From positions 1-20,757 of IMG/VR virus record IMGVR_UViG_3300007623_000040: DNA of 20,757 nt. The stretch is one strand, 5' to 3'. Below are positions 6,820 to 20,703 of the stretch, piece by piece. Under the pieces are notes generated by a model. The model was given only the letters and a program-made list of their open reading frames with translations. It made no database searches and was not told the DNA's origin. How positions within the stretch are numbered: position 1 is the stretch's first letter; each line of letters begins with the position of its first letter. Source of the stretch: a virus. The position numbers and the translations under genes were made by a program.

Positions 6820-7215
6820 TTATTTTTTGCCTATGTTATATTTAGCAACTAAATTCCAATCTTTTTTCTCTTTGTGGGGAAGAATTTTAATCTGAGAAAT
6901 AGGTGCAGATTTTTCAATTGGAGATAATATCTCTACCAATCCCCATTCCTGTAGTAATTTAGCAATAGCATTTCTTCTTTCTTTATCATTATCAGAGAAA
7001 TTTGTTTCTTTTCCATCCAATTCAAAAAGTTCTTTAAAGTGAACAATGGCATACTTGCCTTTCTTATGTAGAATGTGGCAAGATTGATATAGTGTATTAT
7101 CTTTCTTTGAGGCTATACCAATTCTTGTCAATGTTTCTCTAATTTTTAAAAAATCATCTTCTTTTGGTAGCGTTACCTCTATTCCTTTATTGCTAAAAAT
7201 GTTATCATCACTCAT
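6820..7215 (-). CDS. regA: RegA translational repressor
   Basis: Sequence-specific RNA-binding protein that, in T4, occludes the translation start regions of many early mRNAs, including its own. Its 131 residues match T4 RegA (122 aa) along nearly their whole length: DDFLKIRETLTRIGIASKKD (20-39), TLYQSCHILHKKGKYAIVHF (41-60), then KELFELDG, RRNAIAKLLQEWGLVEI and a closing WNLVAKYNIG. T4 has ETLTRMGIANNKDKVLYQSC and HILQKKGLYYIVHFKEM in the same places. The N-terminus is about ten residues longer than in T4. Gene order gp45-gp44-gp62-regA is the T4 order, with one gene inserted. An AT-rich hairpin lies directly before its start and may serve autoregulation. Confidence 0.97.
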   Translation of the reverse strand: MSDDNIFSNKGIEVTLPKEDDFLKIRETLTRIGIASKKDNTLYQSCHILHKKGKYAIVHFKELFELDGKETNFSDNDKERRNAIAKLLQEWGLVEILSPIEKSAPISQIKILPHKEKKDWNLVAKYNIGKK

Positions 7216-7714: not shown

Positions 7715-8140
7715 TTAGTTCAACTCTTCTGGTGGAATAGATTCTTTATCTAGGTTTGGAAAAAAGGTCTCCAAATAATCCGCACCTTCCATCACTTTAA
7801 CCATAGATTCCATATCACCACGGACAGCATCAAGTGGTCCAGCACCTTCACGCGGGATAGGCATCTTTGATGAATTTGGAACAAAGAAATAAGTAATTGG
7901 AGTACGCAAAGGTCGGAATGGAATCAACTGACTCTTATCTGATAGGTTCACTTTGTAAAATTCAAACTTTGATTCATCAACCTCAATATTTGAAAATACT
8001 TTTTCAATCATATATTTACAAGAGTCACAATCATCTCGACTAAACAAAAGTGCCAGAATAGTATTCTTATCTTTACTATTTTCTAGCCAATCATATGCCA
8101 TTTTTTCAGCATCTGAATAAGGTAAATCTTTAATATTCAT
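7715..8140 (-). CDS. Thioredoxin-fold protein with CDSC motif, between gp44 and gp62
   Basis: A 141-residue protein with the thioredoxin pattern: a beta strand (NTILALLFSRDD), the redox motif C38-D-S-C41 at the start of a helix (CDSCKYMIEKVFSNI), a second strand (FEFYKVNLSD) and the cis-proline strand RTPITYFFVP (79-88, P81). CxxC with cis-Pro suggests disulphide or redox exchange, although CDSC differs from CGPC of classical thioredoxin. The C-terminal 40 residues, ending KESIPPEELN, are an acidic extension. No signal peptide is seen, so it is cytoplasmic. It sits between the two clamp-loader genes, eleven bases after gp44 and one base before gp62, with GAGGATACAAT before the ATG. Partners could be the phage peroxiredoxin, ribonucleotide reductase or the loader itself; none is shown. 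Confidence 0.8.
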   Translation of the reverse strand: MNIKDLPYSDAEKMAYDWLENSKDKNTILALLFSRDDCDSCKYMIEKVFSNIEVDESKFEFYKVNLSDKSQLIPFRPLRTPITYFFVPNSSKMPIPREGAGPLDAVRGDMESMVKVMEGADYLETFFPNLDKESIPPEELN

Positions 8141-15198: not shown

Positions 15199-15227
15199 AG
15201 TAAAGCACATAAGTTTTAGTTTGTCAA
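15199..15227 (-). promoter_or_regulatory. Sigma70-type promoter before the lysine-rich-tail gene
   Basis: TTGACA (15227-15222), a 17-base spacer and TTTACT (15204-15199) on the minus strand. The -35 box overlaps the stop codon of gp46. The -10 box matches four of six consensus bases. It lies 27 bases before the ATG at 15172. Confidence 0.72.
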
Positions 15228-16945
15228 GTTTCTTTTCGTTTTATTTTGCTGAAATTGCCATCTTTTGAGAACTCAATTGTGTCATTAAACTTATCTAAGA
15301 GAGGTGCGCCCTTATGACTAATAATAAAAATGTTAGTATTTCCAGAAACTGTTCGAATAAGCTTCATGAAAGACTCTACTCCCGTTTCGTCTAAAGAACT
15401 ATCAAAAACTTCATCTAAAATCAACAAGTTAGTGTTCACCGAAGACTTCATTTTAGCAATAGCCCTCCAAGAAAATAGGAGAGCCAAGTTGATTCTAGTC
15501 TTTTCACCTTCCGAGAATGAAGCATATGAAAATACATCTCTATGTCTAGATTTTATAGTCTCATCAAAATTTTCATCCAGTGTGAATTTAACATAAAAAT
15601 CCAGTGCTGATAAGTACTGATTAATCAACTTATTCATATGTGGAAGATATTTCTTCACAATTTTAGTCTTAATACCAGTATCTTTCAACAATAAACCAGC
15701 TAAGTCAAAATATTGACGCATTTTTAATAGCTTTTCTTTATCTTTTTCAAGTTTTGTTACTGCTTTCTTAAAACTTTCAAGTTCTTCCTGATTTACACTC
15801 TCAAATTCATCATCAATCAAACTTTTGATAGATGAATTTATCTTTTCGATATACTTGTTTATAGATGAAATTGTAGTATTGTTCTTAACAATTTTATTAT
15901 TGATTGTTGATATTTCATCATTGATTTCTGATATAGCATTTATATCGTTTTCGATAACTTCCATTTCAGAAATTAGTTCATCCAAACCTTCTTTGAGTTT
16001 ATCAGCCTTCTCCTGTCTTTTTTCAATTACAGTATTCTTGTACTCTTCTTTGATATCCTGACTACAAGTAGGGCATACATCATTTTCATGGAAAAATTTA
16101 ATAGTTTCATCAGAGTGCTCAATTTTATGAGTCACTTTAGAATGAATTTGTTTAAGTTGCTTTAATTTTGTTTTAAGCGTTTTGTCTTTCTTTGTTTTTT
16201 CCTGTAAATCAGAAATGCTATTCATGTAAGCGACATTAGCTTCGTTCAATTCATCCGCTTGCTGTTTGTTTTCTTCAATATCTTTTTTGTATTTACCAAT
16301 CTGTTCATTTTTAGAATCTTGATTTCGCTTCATGTTACTTTCCTGAAGCTGAATTTTCTCTTCATTGGTAAATATCTTATTTTCAATGTTAATCAAATCA
16401 GTTTTTAGATTTGACATTTTCTGCTTAAGAATAGTATTCATGGTAGTAAATACCTGAATATCAAGGATATTCTCAATAATGTCGCGTCTATCATTAGTTG
16501 ATAACTGCATAAATGGAACAAAAGTAGATGAACCAAGAATTACAACTTGTGTAAATGTTTTATAGTTTAATTTGAGAATCTGTTTTTCAAGTTGGTCTTG
16601 TAAGTCCTTTGCTTTGGCATCTTGGTCAATCATCTTTCCATCTTTCCAGACTTCAAAGATAGCTGGTTTAATTCCGCGTTTAACATTGAACTTATATTTG
16701 CCAATAGTAAAATTGACCTCTACAAGACAGTTCTTTTGGTTGACTGAATTGACTAGTTGAGGCTTGTTAATTTTTCGAAATGGTTTGCCAAATAAACAAA
16801 AAGTAAGGGCATCAAGGATGGTAGATTTACCAGAGCCATTGTGTCCAATAATTAATGTAGTAGGAACATTTTGAAAATTTACCTCAGTAGGCGTATTCCC
16901 TGTAGATAGGAAATTCTTCCACGATATATTCTGGAAAGTTATCAT
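15224..16945 (-). CDS. 46: Recombination endonuclease subunit gp46 (Rad50/SbcC-like ATPase)
   Basis: SMC-like ATPase of the gp46/gp47 complex, which resects DNA ends for recombination-dependent replication and helps degrade host DNA in T4. It has 573 residues (T4 560). Walker A is GHNGSGKS (34-41); the zinc hook C291-P-T-C294 sits in the middle of two long coiled coils (about 170-280 and 300-410); the ABC signature FSEGEKT is at 477-483, Walker B LLILDE at 507-512 and the switch histidine in IISHKG (H544). All key residues are present. The start overlaps the stop of the U32-like gene by one base, and GGAGAATAATACTTA precedes the ATG, so translation is probably coupled. Confidence 0.98.
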   Translation of the reverse strand: MITFQNISWKNFLSTGNTPTEVNFQNVPTTLIIGHNGSGKSTILDALTFCLFGKPFRKINKPQLVNSVNQKNCLVEVNFTIGKYKFNVKRGIKPAIFEVWKDGKMIDQDAKAKDLQDQLEKQILKLNYKTFTQVVILGSSTFVPFMQLSTNDRRDIIENILDIQVFTTMNTILKQKMSNLKTDLINIENKIFTNEEKIQLQESNMKRNQDSKNEQIGKYKKDIEENKQQADELNEANVAYMNSISDLQEKTKKDKTLKTKLKQLKQIHSKVTHKIEHSDETIKFFHENDVCPTCSQDIKEEYKNTVIEKRQEKADKLKEGLDELISEMEVIENDINAISEINDEISTINNKIVKNNTTISSINKYIEKINSSIKSLIDDEFESVNQEELESFKKAVTKLEKDKEKLLKMRQYFDLAGLLLKDTGIKTKIVKKYLPHMNKLINQYLSALDFYVKFTLDENFDETIKSRHRDVFSYASFSEGEKTRINLALLFSWRAIAKMKSSVNTNLLILDEVFDSSLDETGVESFMKLIRTVSGNTNIFIISHKGAPLLDKFNDTIEFSKDGNFSKIKRKET

Positions 16946-18324
16946 TAAGTATTATTCTCCGTTTCGCCCTCCACGCCCTCAGTAGGCAATGAATCGACAA
17001 TTTCCTTAACTCTAATTTTAACAAGAGGCTCTTGTTCTTCTTTGAACTCTTCCGTAATGTCGATAACACTATCAAAGTGCTCAACACCAAAAGTAATTTC
17101 ACATAGATGACAATCATAACATTGTGACTTACAGTTTGTCAATTTCTTTTCAAGTGCTCTTCCTTGTTTCGTATCCCATACAGTGATTGGAATCTCTGTT
17201 ACCTTCTCAACTGGTGGAGCAGTCTTATCAATCATGTCGAAAACTTCCTTAAAGAATTCTTGATTGATATTCAACTCTGTTGGGAGTCCTTCAACTGGCT
17301 TAATCTCTTCATCAATTGGTCTATCCTGTTCAGATGCAATAGGATTAGAAGCCATAGGTAAGAACCAAGACAAATAATCGCCTTCACCATCATTGTAGAT
17401 ACTTTCAAAGTTTGGTCTACGAATATCCAAATCTACATCTTCTGGTGGAAAATCTGAGCGGTCACCAAAGAACCATTCGAATTTTGAATTCTCATCAATA
17501 TGATAGAATCTACCAGAATACTTGAATACATCAACAAGTGGTTCATAAAGGTCAAATGTCTTAGAATACATCCAGTAAGCATCTAGATTGATTCTTGGAA
17601 TTTTTGTATTTTGGAATGACCATCTCTGACAAGCATTCTTAACACTGTAAGGTTTGCGAGTAGATAATGTCTGAGTATGTTCCATAAACATTGGACATTC
17701 TGGCATACAATCTTCATGTACTAACATATAAACTTTAGTGCCAAACTTATCTGCTACCTTACGAATGTTTTTGAGTTCATCAAGGTTACGATTAAGGCTA
17801 CGGTCTACCTGAATATTAGTATAACCCAATTTAACATAATCTATGTATTCTTGAGCAGTTTTAACTTTATGATTGACTGTATTTTTCCATTTCATATCAG
17901 GAAATTCTTTCTGTAGAATATTCAATCTCATTAGAGAAACATTTGATATTGTACAGTTTCGAACACCAGCGGCATAGAAATCCCCAACATAATTAACAAA
18001 TTGTTTAATTACATCATGGTCAAACATCAATTCCCAAGGATGGTAAGTTGGATTAATAGTCAATGAGGCTTCAAATCCAAAATCTTCTTGCGCTTTCATT
18101 AGCCAGTAAAATTCATCAGAATCTGGAGTGATACCAACACCCATGCTATTACTGTATACTTTCTTTTCACCTTTGTATTCATATTCAAAACTGGTACCGA
18201 AGTAAACATCTGCCAGTTCTTCAACAAAAGTACTATCTGCCCGTTTCATGGCATCATAGAACATAGAGCCTTTACAATAACTATCAGGATGTGCTATAGA
18301 AAATCTCTTTGCGAATCTAGCCAC
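16945..18324 (-). CDS. U32-peptidase-like (UbiU/UbiV-type) Fe-S protein
   Basis: 459 residues resembling the U32 family, TIM-barrel proteins that include UbiU/UbiV and RlhA and often carry a 4Fe-4S cluster. Matching segments, in family order, are ELADVYFGTSFEY (36-48), FEASLTINPTYHPWEL (84-99), CTISNVSLMRLNILQKEFPD (124-143), NTVNHKVKTAQEYIDYVKLG (148-167), the strong VDRSLNRNLDELKNI (173-187) and MLVHEDCMPECPMFMEH (200-216). C206, C210 and C232 are candidate cluster ligands. A second cysteine set near the C-terminus, C398-x3-C402-x2-C405-x2-C408, could bind another cluster or metal. The start is GTG at 18324 with GGAGGT six bases upstream; it overlaps the gp47 stop by one base and its own stop overlaps gp46 by one base. 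The substrate is unknown; a hydroxylase, RNA modification or nuclease-accessory role is possible. Confidence 0.72.
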   Translation of the reverse strand: MARFAKRFSIAHPDSYCKGSMFYDAMKRADSTFVEELADVYFGTSFEYEYKGEKKVYSNSMGVGITPDSDEFYWLMKAQEDFGFEASLTINPTYHPWELMFDHDVIKQFVNYVGDFYAAGVRNCTISNVSLMRLNILQKEFPDMKWKNTVNHKVKTAQEYIDYVKLGYTNIQVDRSLNRNLDELKNIRKVADKFGTKVYMLVHEDCMPECPMFMEHTQTLSTRKPYSVKNACQRWSFQNTKIPRINLDAYWMYSKTFDLYEPLVDVFKYSGRFYHIDENSKFEWFFGDRSDFPPEDVDLDIRRPNFESIYNDGEGDYLSWFLPMASNPIASEQDRPIDEEIKPVEGLPTELNINQEFFKEVFDMIDKTAPPVEKVTEIPITVWDTKQGRALEKKLTNCKSQCYDCHLCEITFGVEHFDSVIDITEEFKEEQEPLVKIRVKEIVDSLPTEGVEGETENNT

Positions 18325-19385
18325 TACTCTACCTCCAACGATTCCATATATAATTGTTTTAAAACACCCTTCAATATGTTTTTATCAGCTTCAATTTCAA
18401 GTTCATCTACATATCTTCCAAGCAAGGTCATAGTGTCTTCTGACAGATTAACATCATCATCCACTGTTTCATCATCAATGATTATATCTTCTACAATTGA
18501 TATATCTGCTGGATTTGATTTGTAAATTTTATCCATAAACTTATCGAAAAAATATGGATTGGTTTTGCTTTCAACAATAACCTTTACATAGCGTTCTTTT
18601 ATGACTTCTTCTTTTATTTCATCCAATAACTGAGGTAGTTCTTTGTCAATATCATCATAAAAAATCTTATGGAACATGGTAAAAGGATTTTCGATAAATT
18701 CTATCTCGGCAGTTTCCGTATCGAAAATATGAAATCCTCGCTTATCACCGTAATCAATCCATGTTATTTCATATTCATTTCCCAAATATGTGACATTTCC
18801 GTTTGTTGATTTGTGGTGAAAGTGTCCAGAATATACTTTGTCAAATTTATCGAACACCTTCATTGACAAGCCATGTTCATTTACCATTCCCGGATTCATG
18901 AGAAATCCAGATAGCTCCAAGTGTCCCATTGCTACAAGAGCACTTGTATTTTTAATTAGCTCTAATGTATATTCTTCGTTTTCTTGATTAATCCAAGGAA
19001 CCATAAGAATTTCTCTACCATCAAACTCTGCTACTTCGGCTTCTTCATAAATTGTAATATTATCATAGCTACCCAATAGCAATTTGACAGAATTTACCTT
19101 ATTGGTATTCTTATAATAAGTATCATGATTCCCCACGATTATGTGAGTATTGATATTTTTTTCTTTCAATTGAGAAAATAAATCAGACTTAATTCTATCA
19201 AGAATATTATAGTTGATATACTTGCGTCTATCAAAAACATCACCAAGATGAATTACAGTGTCAATATTTCTTTTTTCTAATTCTGGAAAAAATACATTAT
19301 TGTAAAATTTCATGAAATATTCATGAAATAATACCGAATCATTACGAGCACCAAAATGGGTATCTGTCAATAGAGCTATTTTCAT
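18324..19385 (-). CDS. 47: Recombination endonuclease subunit gp47 (Mre11/SbcD-like)
   Basis: Metallophosphoesterase nuclease subunit, 353 residues (T4 339). The phosphoesterase motifs appear in order: LLTDTHFG (5-12; D8, H10), HLGDVFDRR (46-54; D49), VGNHDTYY (84-91; N86, H87), MGHLE (153-157; H155) and YSGHFHHK (185-192; H188, H190). All expected metal ligands are present. With gp46 it forms the nuclease that processes DNA ends in phage recombination. Its start overlaps the preceding 65-residue gene by four bases (ATGA type), and its stop overlaps the GTG start of the U32-like gene. Confidence 0.97.
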   Translation of the reverse strand: MKIALLTDTHFGARNDSVLFHEYFMKFYNNVFFPELEKRNIDTVIHLGDVFDRRKYINYNILDRIKSDLFSQLKEKNINTHIIVGNHDTYYKNTNKVNSVKLLLGSYDNITIYEEAEVAEFDGREILMVPWINQENEEYTLELIKNTSALVAMGHLELSGFLMNPGMVNEHGLSMKVFDKFDKVYSGHFHHKSTNGNVTYLGNEYEITWIDYGDKRGFHIFDTETAEIEFIENPFTMFHKIFYDDIDKELPQLLDEIKEEVIKERYVKVIVESKTNPYFFDKFMDKIYKSNPADISIVEDIIIDDETVDDDVNLSEDTMTLLGRYVDELEIEADKNILKGVLKQLYMESLEVE

Positions 19386-20052: not shown

Positions 20053-20437
20053 GTTCTTTCCACCATCTTATTTTTCTGCCGTTTAATACTTCACCTTCAA
20101 AGATACTAATCAACATATCATAGTCCCAGACTTCTGTTGTCTCTAAGTCCCATAACCATTCGGAAAGTAATCTCCAATCCTCGCTAACCATTGGTGGTAC
20201 TGCGTATTCATTCCAACCATCATATCCATCTTTACTGCTATCGCGAATGTCGATACGACCAGCGGCATAGTGTGTATGAACTGTTTCGATTTCGTATGTG
20301 GCACCAATTGGTAGGTCTTTGATTTTAGAAATCATCTCAGACTCAACTGTTTCAGTAATGAAATGAGTTAGTCCACGCTCTCGGAACCAATCCATTGTGA
20401 TAGGACCCATAAAGTTTAAAAAATAACTAACACTCAT
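20039..20437 (-). CDS. Hypothetical protein (132 aa)
   Basis: Unrecognised, 132 residues, acidic and Trp-rich. MDWFRERGLTHFITETVESE (15-34) is followed by a strand-rich middle (ATYEIETVHTHYAAGRIDIR) and a C-terminal half with many Trp/Asp (EDWRLLSEWLWDLETTEVWD). The start at 20437 overlaps the upstream stop in an ATGA arrangement, typical of translational coupling; an internal ATG at residue 15 is possible. There is no membrane segment. It lies just upstream of the recombination unit, and the -35 box of that unit's promoter overlaps its 3' end. Confidence 0.75.
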   Translation of the reverse strand: MSVSYFLNFMGPITMDWFRERGLTHFITETVESEMISKIKDLPIGATYEIETVHTHYAAGRIDIRDSSKDGYDGWNEYAVPPMVSEDWRLLSEWLWDLETTEVWDYDMLISIFEGEVLNGRKIRWWKELDID

Positions 20438-20703
20438 TTTTTGGCTTTATACTCTCTAATCTTTTGTTGCATTTCGCGGTCCATGGCAATATACGCATCT
20501 GAGCACGATTTACAGAAATGTAACCTATCTTCGTGGTCATATCCGTAAGCAATAATAACACGGCAACCGTTACACAATAAAGCGCCATTGCCATTGTTGT
20601 ACTTCACTTCAGCATATTTAGAAGGACCTTCTGTAGGTCCAGTGCAGTTATCGTGGAAACATCCTGCTGTTAATGGTCCACCTTCGCAACATACTTTAGC
20701 CAT
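20434..20703 (-). CDS. Small zinc-ribbon-like protein (89 aa)
   Basis: Two CxxC pairs, C44-x2-C47 and C64-x2-C67, separated by 16 residues form a typical small zinc-ribbon/treble-clef pattern (LLCNGCRVI and HFCKSCSDA). Four more cysteines (C5, C6, C15, C20) stand in the N-terminal 20 residues and could make a second metal site. The C-terminus is a basic helix (REMQQKIREYKAKK). Metal binding is inferred from spacing; a DNA- or RNA-binding role is only possible. GTGGAC is a modest ribosome binding site before the ATG at 20703. The 54 bases beyond contain no promoter I can recognise, so the unit may begin outside the window. Confidence 0.75.
   Translation of the reverse strand: MAKVCCEGGPLTAGCFHDNCTGPTEGPSKYAEVKYNNGNGALLCNGCRVIIAYGYDHEDRLHFCKSCSDAYIAMDREMQQKIREYKAKK

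Follow-up and report, generated by a model that had tools for sequence, protein, structure and literature searches.

A divergent U32-superfamily protein encoded between gp47 and gp46 of a T4-like phage: a probable Fe-S redox modifier

The locus

The window, that is, the whole stretch of 20,757 bases from an IMG/VR virus record analysed here, holds the replication and recombination block of a T4-like phage. It is coded on the minus strand, with the gene order gp47, U32-like gene, gp46, CobT-like, CobS-like, gp45, gp44, thioredoxin-like, gp62, regA and gp43. The features considered first are the following.

18324..19385, minus strand: gp47 (Mre11/SbcD-like); PHROG 100, 4e-111; PF00149
18331..18336, minus strand: Shine-Dalgarno sequence GGAGGT of the U32-like gene, strong, within the 3' end of gp47
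16945..18324, minus strand: gene for the U32-like, putative Fe-S protein, open for 459 aa from a GTG start; assigned on family and fold evidence
15224..16945, minus strand: gp46 (Rad50/SbcC-like); PHROG 77, 3e-174
6820..7215, minus strand: regA; PHROG 242; in 18 viral relatives the U32-like gene follows regA

The stop codon of gp47 (TAG, 18326-18324) shares one base with the GTG of the U32-like gene (TAGTG), and the stop codon of the latter (TAA, 16947-16945) shares one base with the ATG of gp46 (TAATG). Reading frame and junction bases thus confirm what a sequence-only reading of this DNA had described, an open frame joined to its two neighbours by one-base overlaps, and the PHROG matches listed above confirm the identities that it had given to gp47 and gp46.

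Elsewhere in the window, the thioredoxin-like gene (7715-8140, minus strand) lies in the gp44-gp62 interval, in which related phages carry a similar gene together with a small MazG-like gene, and positions 20434-20703 (minus strand) encode a small cysteine-rich, zinc-finger-like protein of 89 aa that has no significant PHROG match. A search of the window for tRNA genes found none, and none of its genes was recognised as encoding a halogenase, methyltransferase or 2OG enzyme.

Relationship to the U32 superfamily

Searches of Pfam and NCBIfam with the window protein gave no family match (the gathering cut-off of PF01136 was not reached), a search of PDB sequences returned nothing useful, and no relatives emerged when viral contigs were scanned with the single sequence. 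PHROG gave matches to 1458 and 36869 only, neither of which has an assigned function. In its AlphaFold model, the window protein has a good barrel and a poor segment at residues 273-380 (pLDDT about 30-40); the best PDB match of this model in Foldseek is the U32 protein Mk0906 (5d88, E 1.2e-8), followed by the next TIM barrel at 1.2e-4. Because of the poor segment, a compact homologue of 346 aa was folded instead, with a pLDDT of 91 and a pTM of 0.91. It matches 5d88 at 1.2e-6 in Foldseek and superposes on it with Z 16.6 (226 residues, rmsd 3.2), ahead of the next fold at Z 12.8.

Profile-profile comparison (hhalign) with a canonical U32 profile built from TrhP, UbiU, RlhA and bin-derived U32 proteins gave an in-register match [prob 75, E 2.6e-5; 4e-5 on repetition] that pairs N91, T149 and R175 of the window protein with N67, S116 and R142 of TrhP. 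Against an alignment led by UbiV, the profile gave no significant match. Three chromosomal proteins (L216-L218) bridge the two groups, since they exceed the Pfam cut-off for U32 and also match the HMM of the family to which the window protein belongs. One locus (L190) was left out of the alignments, its open reading frame being in the wrong frame, and canonical U32 matches among phage records were not used, as they mostly resemble bacterial DNA in phage-labelled contigs. From the fold, the profile-profile match, the bridge sequences and the invariant residues that it keeps, we conclude that the window protein is a divergent member of the U32 superfamily. The U32-like TIM barrel proposed from the letters alone therefore stands, with Mk0906 as the top match of the protein modelled by itself; the direct HMM route to U32 failed at PF01136, and the link runs instead through profiles and bridges.

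Conserved residues and cysteine layout

The barrel and its conserved positions map to the window as follows.

17509..18324, minus strand: U32-like TIM-barrel region, aa 1-272; 5d88 match of the window model, Z 16.6 for the compact homologue
18052..18054, minus strand: N91, equivalent of the U32-invariant N67 of TrhP; hhalign and alignment, kept in 90 of 90
17800..17802, minus strand: R175 (in DRSL), equivalent of the U32-invariant R142 of TrhP (in SREL); hhalign, alignment and conservation
17695..17709, minus strand: C206-x3-C210, counterpart of U32 C170/C177, with the invariant E204 just before; joint alignment and conservation
17629..17631, minus strand: C232 (CxxW), counterpart of the last cysteine of the U32 motif (ACRW); joint alignment and conservation
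17509..17523, minus strand: K268-x2-G271-R272, counterpart of U32 KIEGR (TrhP K287-G290-R291); joint alignment and conservation
17101..17133, minus strand: C-terminal C398-x3-C402-x2-C405-x2-C408, not found in the aligned canonical U32 barrels

Seven cysteines (C206, C210, C232, C398, C402, C405 and C408) are identical in all 90 full-length proteins of clade I (defined below), as are N91, R175, R179, E204, H216, W235, K268 and R272, and both clades of the family, phage and bin-derived members alike, keep the seven cysteines without exception. With these cysteines, E204, R175, R179, K268 and R272 kept in every one of the 90 proteins, the pattern is not a product of chance. The motifs picked out in the sequence-only reading lie where it had placed them (NRNLDEL at aa 178-184, EDC-x3-C with C206 and C210, and the C-terminal C398/C402/C405/C408), and this conservation bears out its proposal of barrel cysteines accompanied by a second, C-terminal set.

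The canonical U32 motif is CX6CX15CX3/4C (PMC6747719). The window protein has CX3CX21C in its barrel and does not conform to that pattern, the third motif cysteine being missing. The position of Glu162, a residue essential in TrhP and RlhA (PMC6599085), is taken by Y199 and varies among Ser, Tyr, Cys and Phe across the clade, so that the glutamate is not conserved, although a different and invariant glutamate, E204, is close by. The loss of both the third motif cysteine and the glutamate suggests that the chemistry may differ.

Two other identities were considered and rejected. A radical SAM enzyme does not fit, because its CX3CX2C should follow the first strand of the barrel, whereas the one CX3CX2C present, at C398-C405, lies beyond the barrel, and PF04055 gives no match. 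That the protein is literally a U32 peptidase is suggested by the family name and by the label of 5d88 as a predicted protease, but the invariant cysteine sets and the oxidative neighbours described below speak against proteolysis, the characterised cysteine-bearing U32 proteins being hydroxylation factors, and we regard a protease as highly improbable.

Phylogeny and distribution of the family

The tree of the family shows two clades, with the window protein in clade I on a long branch of 1.5 changes per site. Quick trees did not place it firmly with the phage copies linked to regA (support 81 and 0.80), and we therefore call those copies relatives rather than orthologues. Clade II includes the cyanophage protein T4-GC_354, which is present in 123 isolate phage records as a hypothetical protein and sits in a fibre/denV module in the five records read. 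In this clade a Methyltransf_24 domain is fused to the U32-like protein or encoded by the next gene, and radical SAM or 2OG-Fe(II) genes are neighbours.

We found 129 viral loci of clade I and examined the neighbourhood of 80; the bin-derived loci treated as "cellular" may include viral contigs, and two of them (L180 and L188) look viral. The clade is one that has been overlooked and is common in environmental phages.

The gp47-gp46 junction

The order gp47-U32-gp46 was found in none of the 80 nearest gp47 loci (77 of them with gp46 also in view) and in none of the 80 clade-I loci, both counts leaving out records very near the window. In half of the gp47 loci (40) the two genes lie no more than 100 bases apart. 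Elsewhere the inserts between them are DUF3110-like genes (21 loci, two being isolate phages fetched separately), 2OG-Fe(II) oxygenases (seven loci: L096, L098, L107, L113, L117, L146 and L148) or other single genes; in L096 (7080-8331) two 2OG-Fe(II) oxygenases stand in tandem at the junction. This variety of inserts indicates that the junction is a cassette site. That an O2-dependent type of hydroxylase occupies it elsewhere and a U32 type here would form a parallel to TrhO and TrhP, which is suggestive, if unproven.

These counts bear on the proposal, made from the one-base overlaps on both sides and the shared operon, that the protein serves the Mre11-Rad50-like nuclease of gp46/47 as an Fe-S partner or regulates it, being produced in stoichiometric amounts through translational coupling. 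The sequence-only reading had itself named a neighbourhood not conserved in related phages as grounds for refutation, and among the loci covered that is the outcome. Against the proposal speak the unrelated cassettes that fill this slot in other phages, the distance of most relatives from 46 and 47, and the absence of the order seen in the window from every other gp47 or U32-like locus fetched, a sample from which near relatives of the window stand apart. Outside the T4-type block, moreover, the recurrent neighbours are Fe-S assembly and oxidative enzymes, not nucleases. We infer that the protein is not a nuclease partner, a role that we now consider very unlikely; translation in step with gp47 and gp46 would arise because the gene occupies a permissive cassette site in a replication and recombination operon, and not because its product is a nuclease subunit.

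Neighbourhoods of relatives

A T4-type replication block houses the U32-like gene in about 20 of the 80 clade-I loci, and in 18 the gene comes directly after regA. An iscU gene is found two genes downstream of the U32-like gene in five of the 80, with a further copy in L052. These genes (L052:8127-8510; also in L015, L230, L232, L236 and L237) encode a phage IscU [NifU_N, E 9e-51] and adjoin a 2OG-Fe(II) oxygenase gene in T4-type replication blocks.

A larger group of clade-I loci (47-48) has a tail-fibre-like gene and a small chaperone-like gene directly upstream, the fibre call being made mostly by sequence appearance. A tryptophan-halogenase-like flavoenzyme is encoded in 32 of the 80, mostly directly after the U32-like gene or one gene further on, which corresponds to about 20 distinct loci at <92% identity (a halogenase gene downstream was counted in 33); PF04820 was matched at about 1e-110 in 10 of the 12 records tested, and the same halogenase query matched one of the 80 gp47 loci. 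In several loci, the gene between the U32-like gene and the halogenase matches 2OG-Fe(II) weakly, with E between 2e-6 and 3e-5, which falls below the Pfam cut-off. Among bin-derived homologues, the neighbours also include SPASM radical SAM, SapC, DUF6445 and C39-transporter genes.

Several other arrangements were seen among the relatives. A cassette of radical SAM gene, 346-aa U32-like gene and methyltransferase gene recurs in phage regions of tail-fibre type (L034:4872-7552 and relatives, 26 loci). An Arcobacteraceae bin (L174:95-3387) carries a tandem pair of U32-like paralogues, each extended by a long N-terminal stretch, and after them a SapC-domain gene, and in a Hydrogenimonas bin (L183:4450-5763) a RAMP-superfamily (CRISPR type III-like) gene lies directly upstream of the U32-like gene.

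Proposed function

U32 oxidases add hydroxyl groups without O2, with prephenate implicated as the oxygen source (PMC6599085, PMC6747719, PMC11574389). The canonical TrhP/RlhA type is marked by a [4Fe-4S] cluster and prephenate-dependent hydroxylation. We think it likely that the window protein is an Fe-S redox modifier of U32 type that oxidatively modifies a macromolecule; its Fe-S content, its redox chemistry and the macromolecular nature of its substrate are what we infer from the features above. For this protein, a role in chemical modification is more likely than a place in the nuclease, since members of its clade usually stand beside other oxidising enzymes. Points against the redox reading are the altered motif and glutamate position, the lack of a direct Pfam or NCBIfam match, the long branch, the poorly modelled residues 273-380 and the fact that no halogenase, 2OG enzyme or methyltransferase was seen in the window. 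The suggestion in the sequence-only reading of a modifying enzyme thus gains support from the halogenase, 2OG-Fe(II)-like and methyltransferase genes that accompany the relatives. An Fe-S cluster is predicted in the TIM barrel, where it would probably be held by C206, C210 and C232; the C-terminal set may supply the fourth ligand, or C398, C402, C405 and C408 may hold a second cluster. The iscU genes that accompany some relatives count in favour of Fe-S binding. The protein would most likely act in the manner of TrhP, RlhA and UbiU/V, making an oxidative change to a phage or host macromolecule, which is probably independent of O2 and for which hydroxylation serves as the model. In B. subtilis, the hydroxyuridine produced by TrhP homologues is subsequently methylated (PMC6599085), and the fused methyltransferase of clade II would fit a similar sequence of hydroxylation followed by methylation. 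Candidates for the substrate are RNA, DNA, a protein of the virion or tail fibre, and the glycan on such a protein.

The nuclease reading discussed above and the two that follow are alternatives for the substrate or partner. A modifier of nucleic acids or nucleotides during replication, hydroxylating a base of DNA, tRNA or rRNA, would have the substrate closest to those of TrhP and RlhA: those characterised U32 proteins that act on RNA place the hydroxyl at C5 of pyrimidines (PMC6599085), and about 20 relatives are found in the replication block, next to regA. More relatives, however, adjoin tail-fibre-like genes together with halogenases and 2OG enzymes, and the window is without a tRNA gene, so that we hold this option to be rather doubtful.

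Somewhat likelier, if still short of an even chance, is the tailoring of a virion (tail-fibre) protein or of its glycan in concert with a methyltransferase, a flavin halogenase or a 2OG-Fe(II) oxygenase; copies in replication blocks would then have been relocated. The fibre-like and chaperone-like genes upstream and the halogenase genes downstream point in this direction, as do the cyanophage copies, which carry a fused methyltransferase and are located in a fibre module. The copy in the window, on the other hand, belongs to an early-type operon where no fibre gene is seen, and the fibre annotation in most loci was made by appearance.

Beyond the redox modifier that we favour, one may venture a wider proposal, put forward here as speculation. 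The family might form a large branch of U32-type hydroxylases that is borne by phages, needs no O2 and has a two-site arrangement of cysteines which the characterised members lack. Together with flavin halogenases, 2OG oxygenases and methyltransferases, it would decorate nucleic acids or virion proteins, and in this phage it would have moved into the recombination-nuclease operon.

Comparison with known systems

Few enzymes are believed to hydroxylate without O2; U32 proteins belong to these, and the role of their Fe-S clusters is open (PMC11574389). A compact and well-modelled member of 346 aa with a second conserved cysteine set provides new material for this question. A hypothetical protein of more than 100 cyanophage records and many environmental phages is now given a family, and the recurrent halogenase, 2OG oxygenase, methyltransferase and IscU neighbours point to an unexplored system of oxidative modification in phages.

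The window protein resembles TrhP, RlhA and UbiU (PF01136) in its TIM barrel, in the residues equivalent to N67, R142 and KxxGR, in three of the four barrel cysteine positions and in profile similarity. It differs from them in having CX3C rather than CX6C, in lacking the third motif cysteine and Glu162, in the added C-terminal CX3CX2CX2C and in falling below Pfam detection. With Mk0906 (5d88) it shares about 9-15% identity, and the matched region is the barrel (model residues 1-280), with the C-terminal cysteine extension lying outside it. The bridge proteins L216, L217 and L218, from two metagenome-assembled genomes, have the CX3C, the further barrel cysteine and a C-terminal CX3-4CX2CX2C as the family does, but they are chromosomal, lie beside genes that by inspection appear to serve lipid or secondary metabolism, and are intermediate in sequence. 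Cyanophage T4-GC_354 (PHROG 1458), which stands for the phage relatives known from isolates, has the same seven cysteines and barrel as the window protein, from which it is set apart by its place in clade II, its C-terminal Methyltransf_24 domain and its location in a tail-fibre/denV module.
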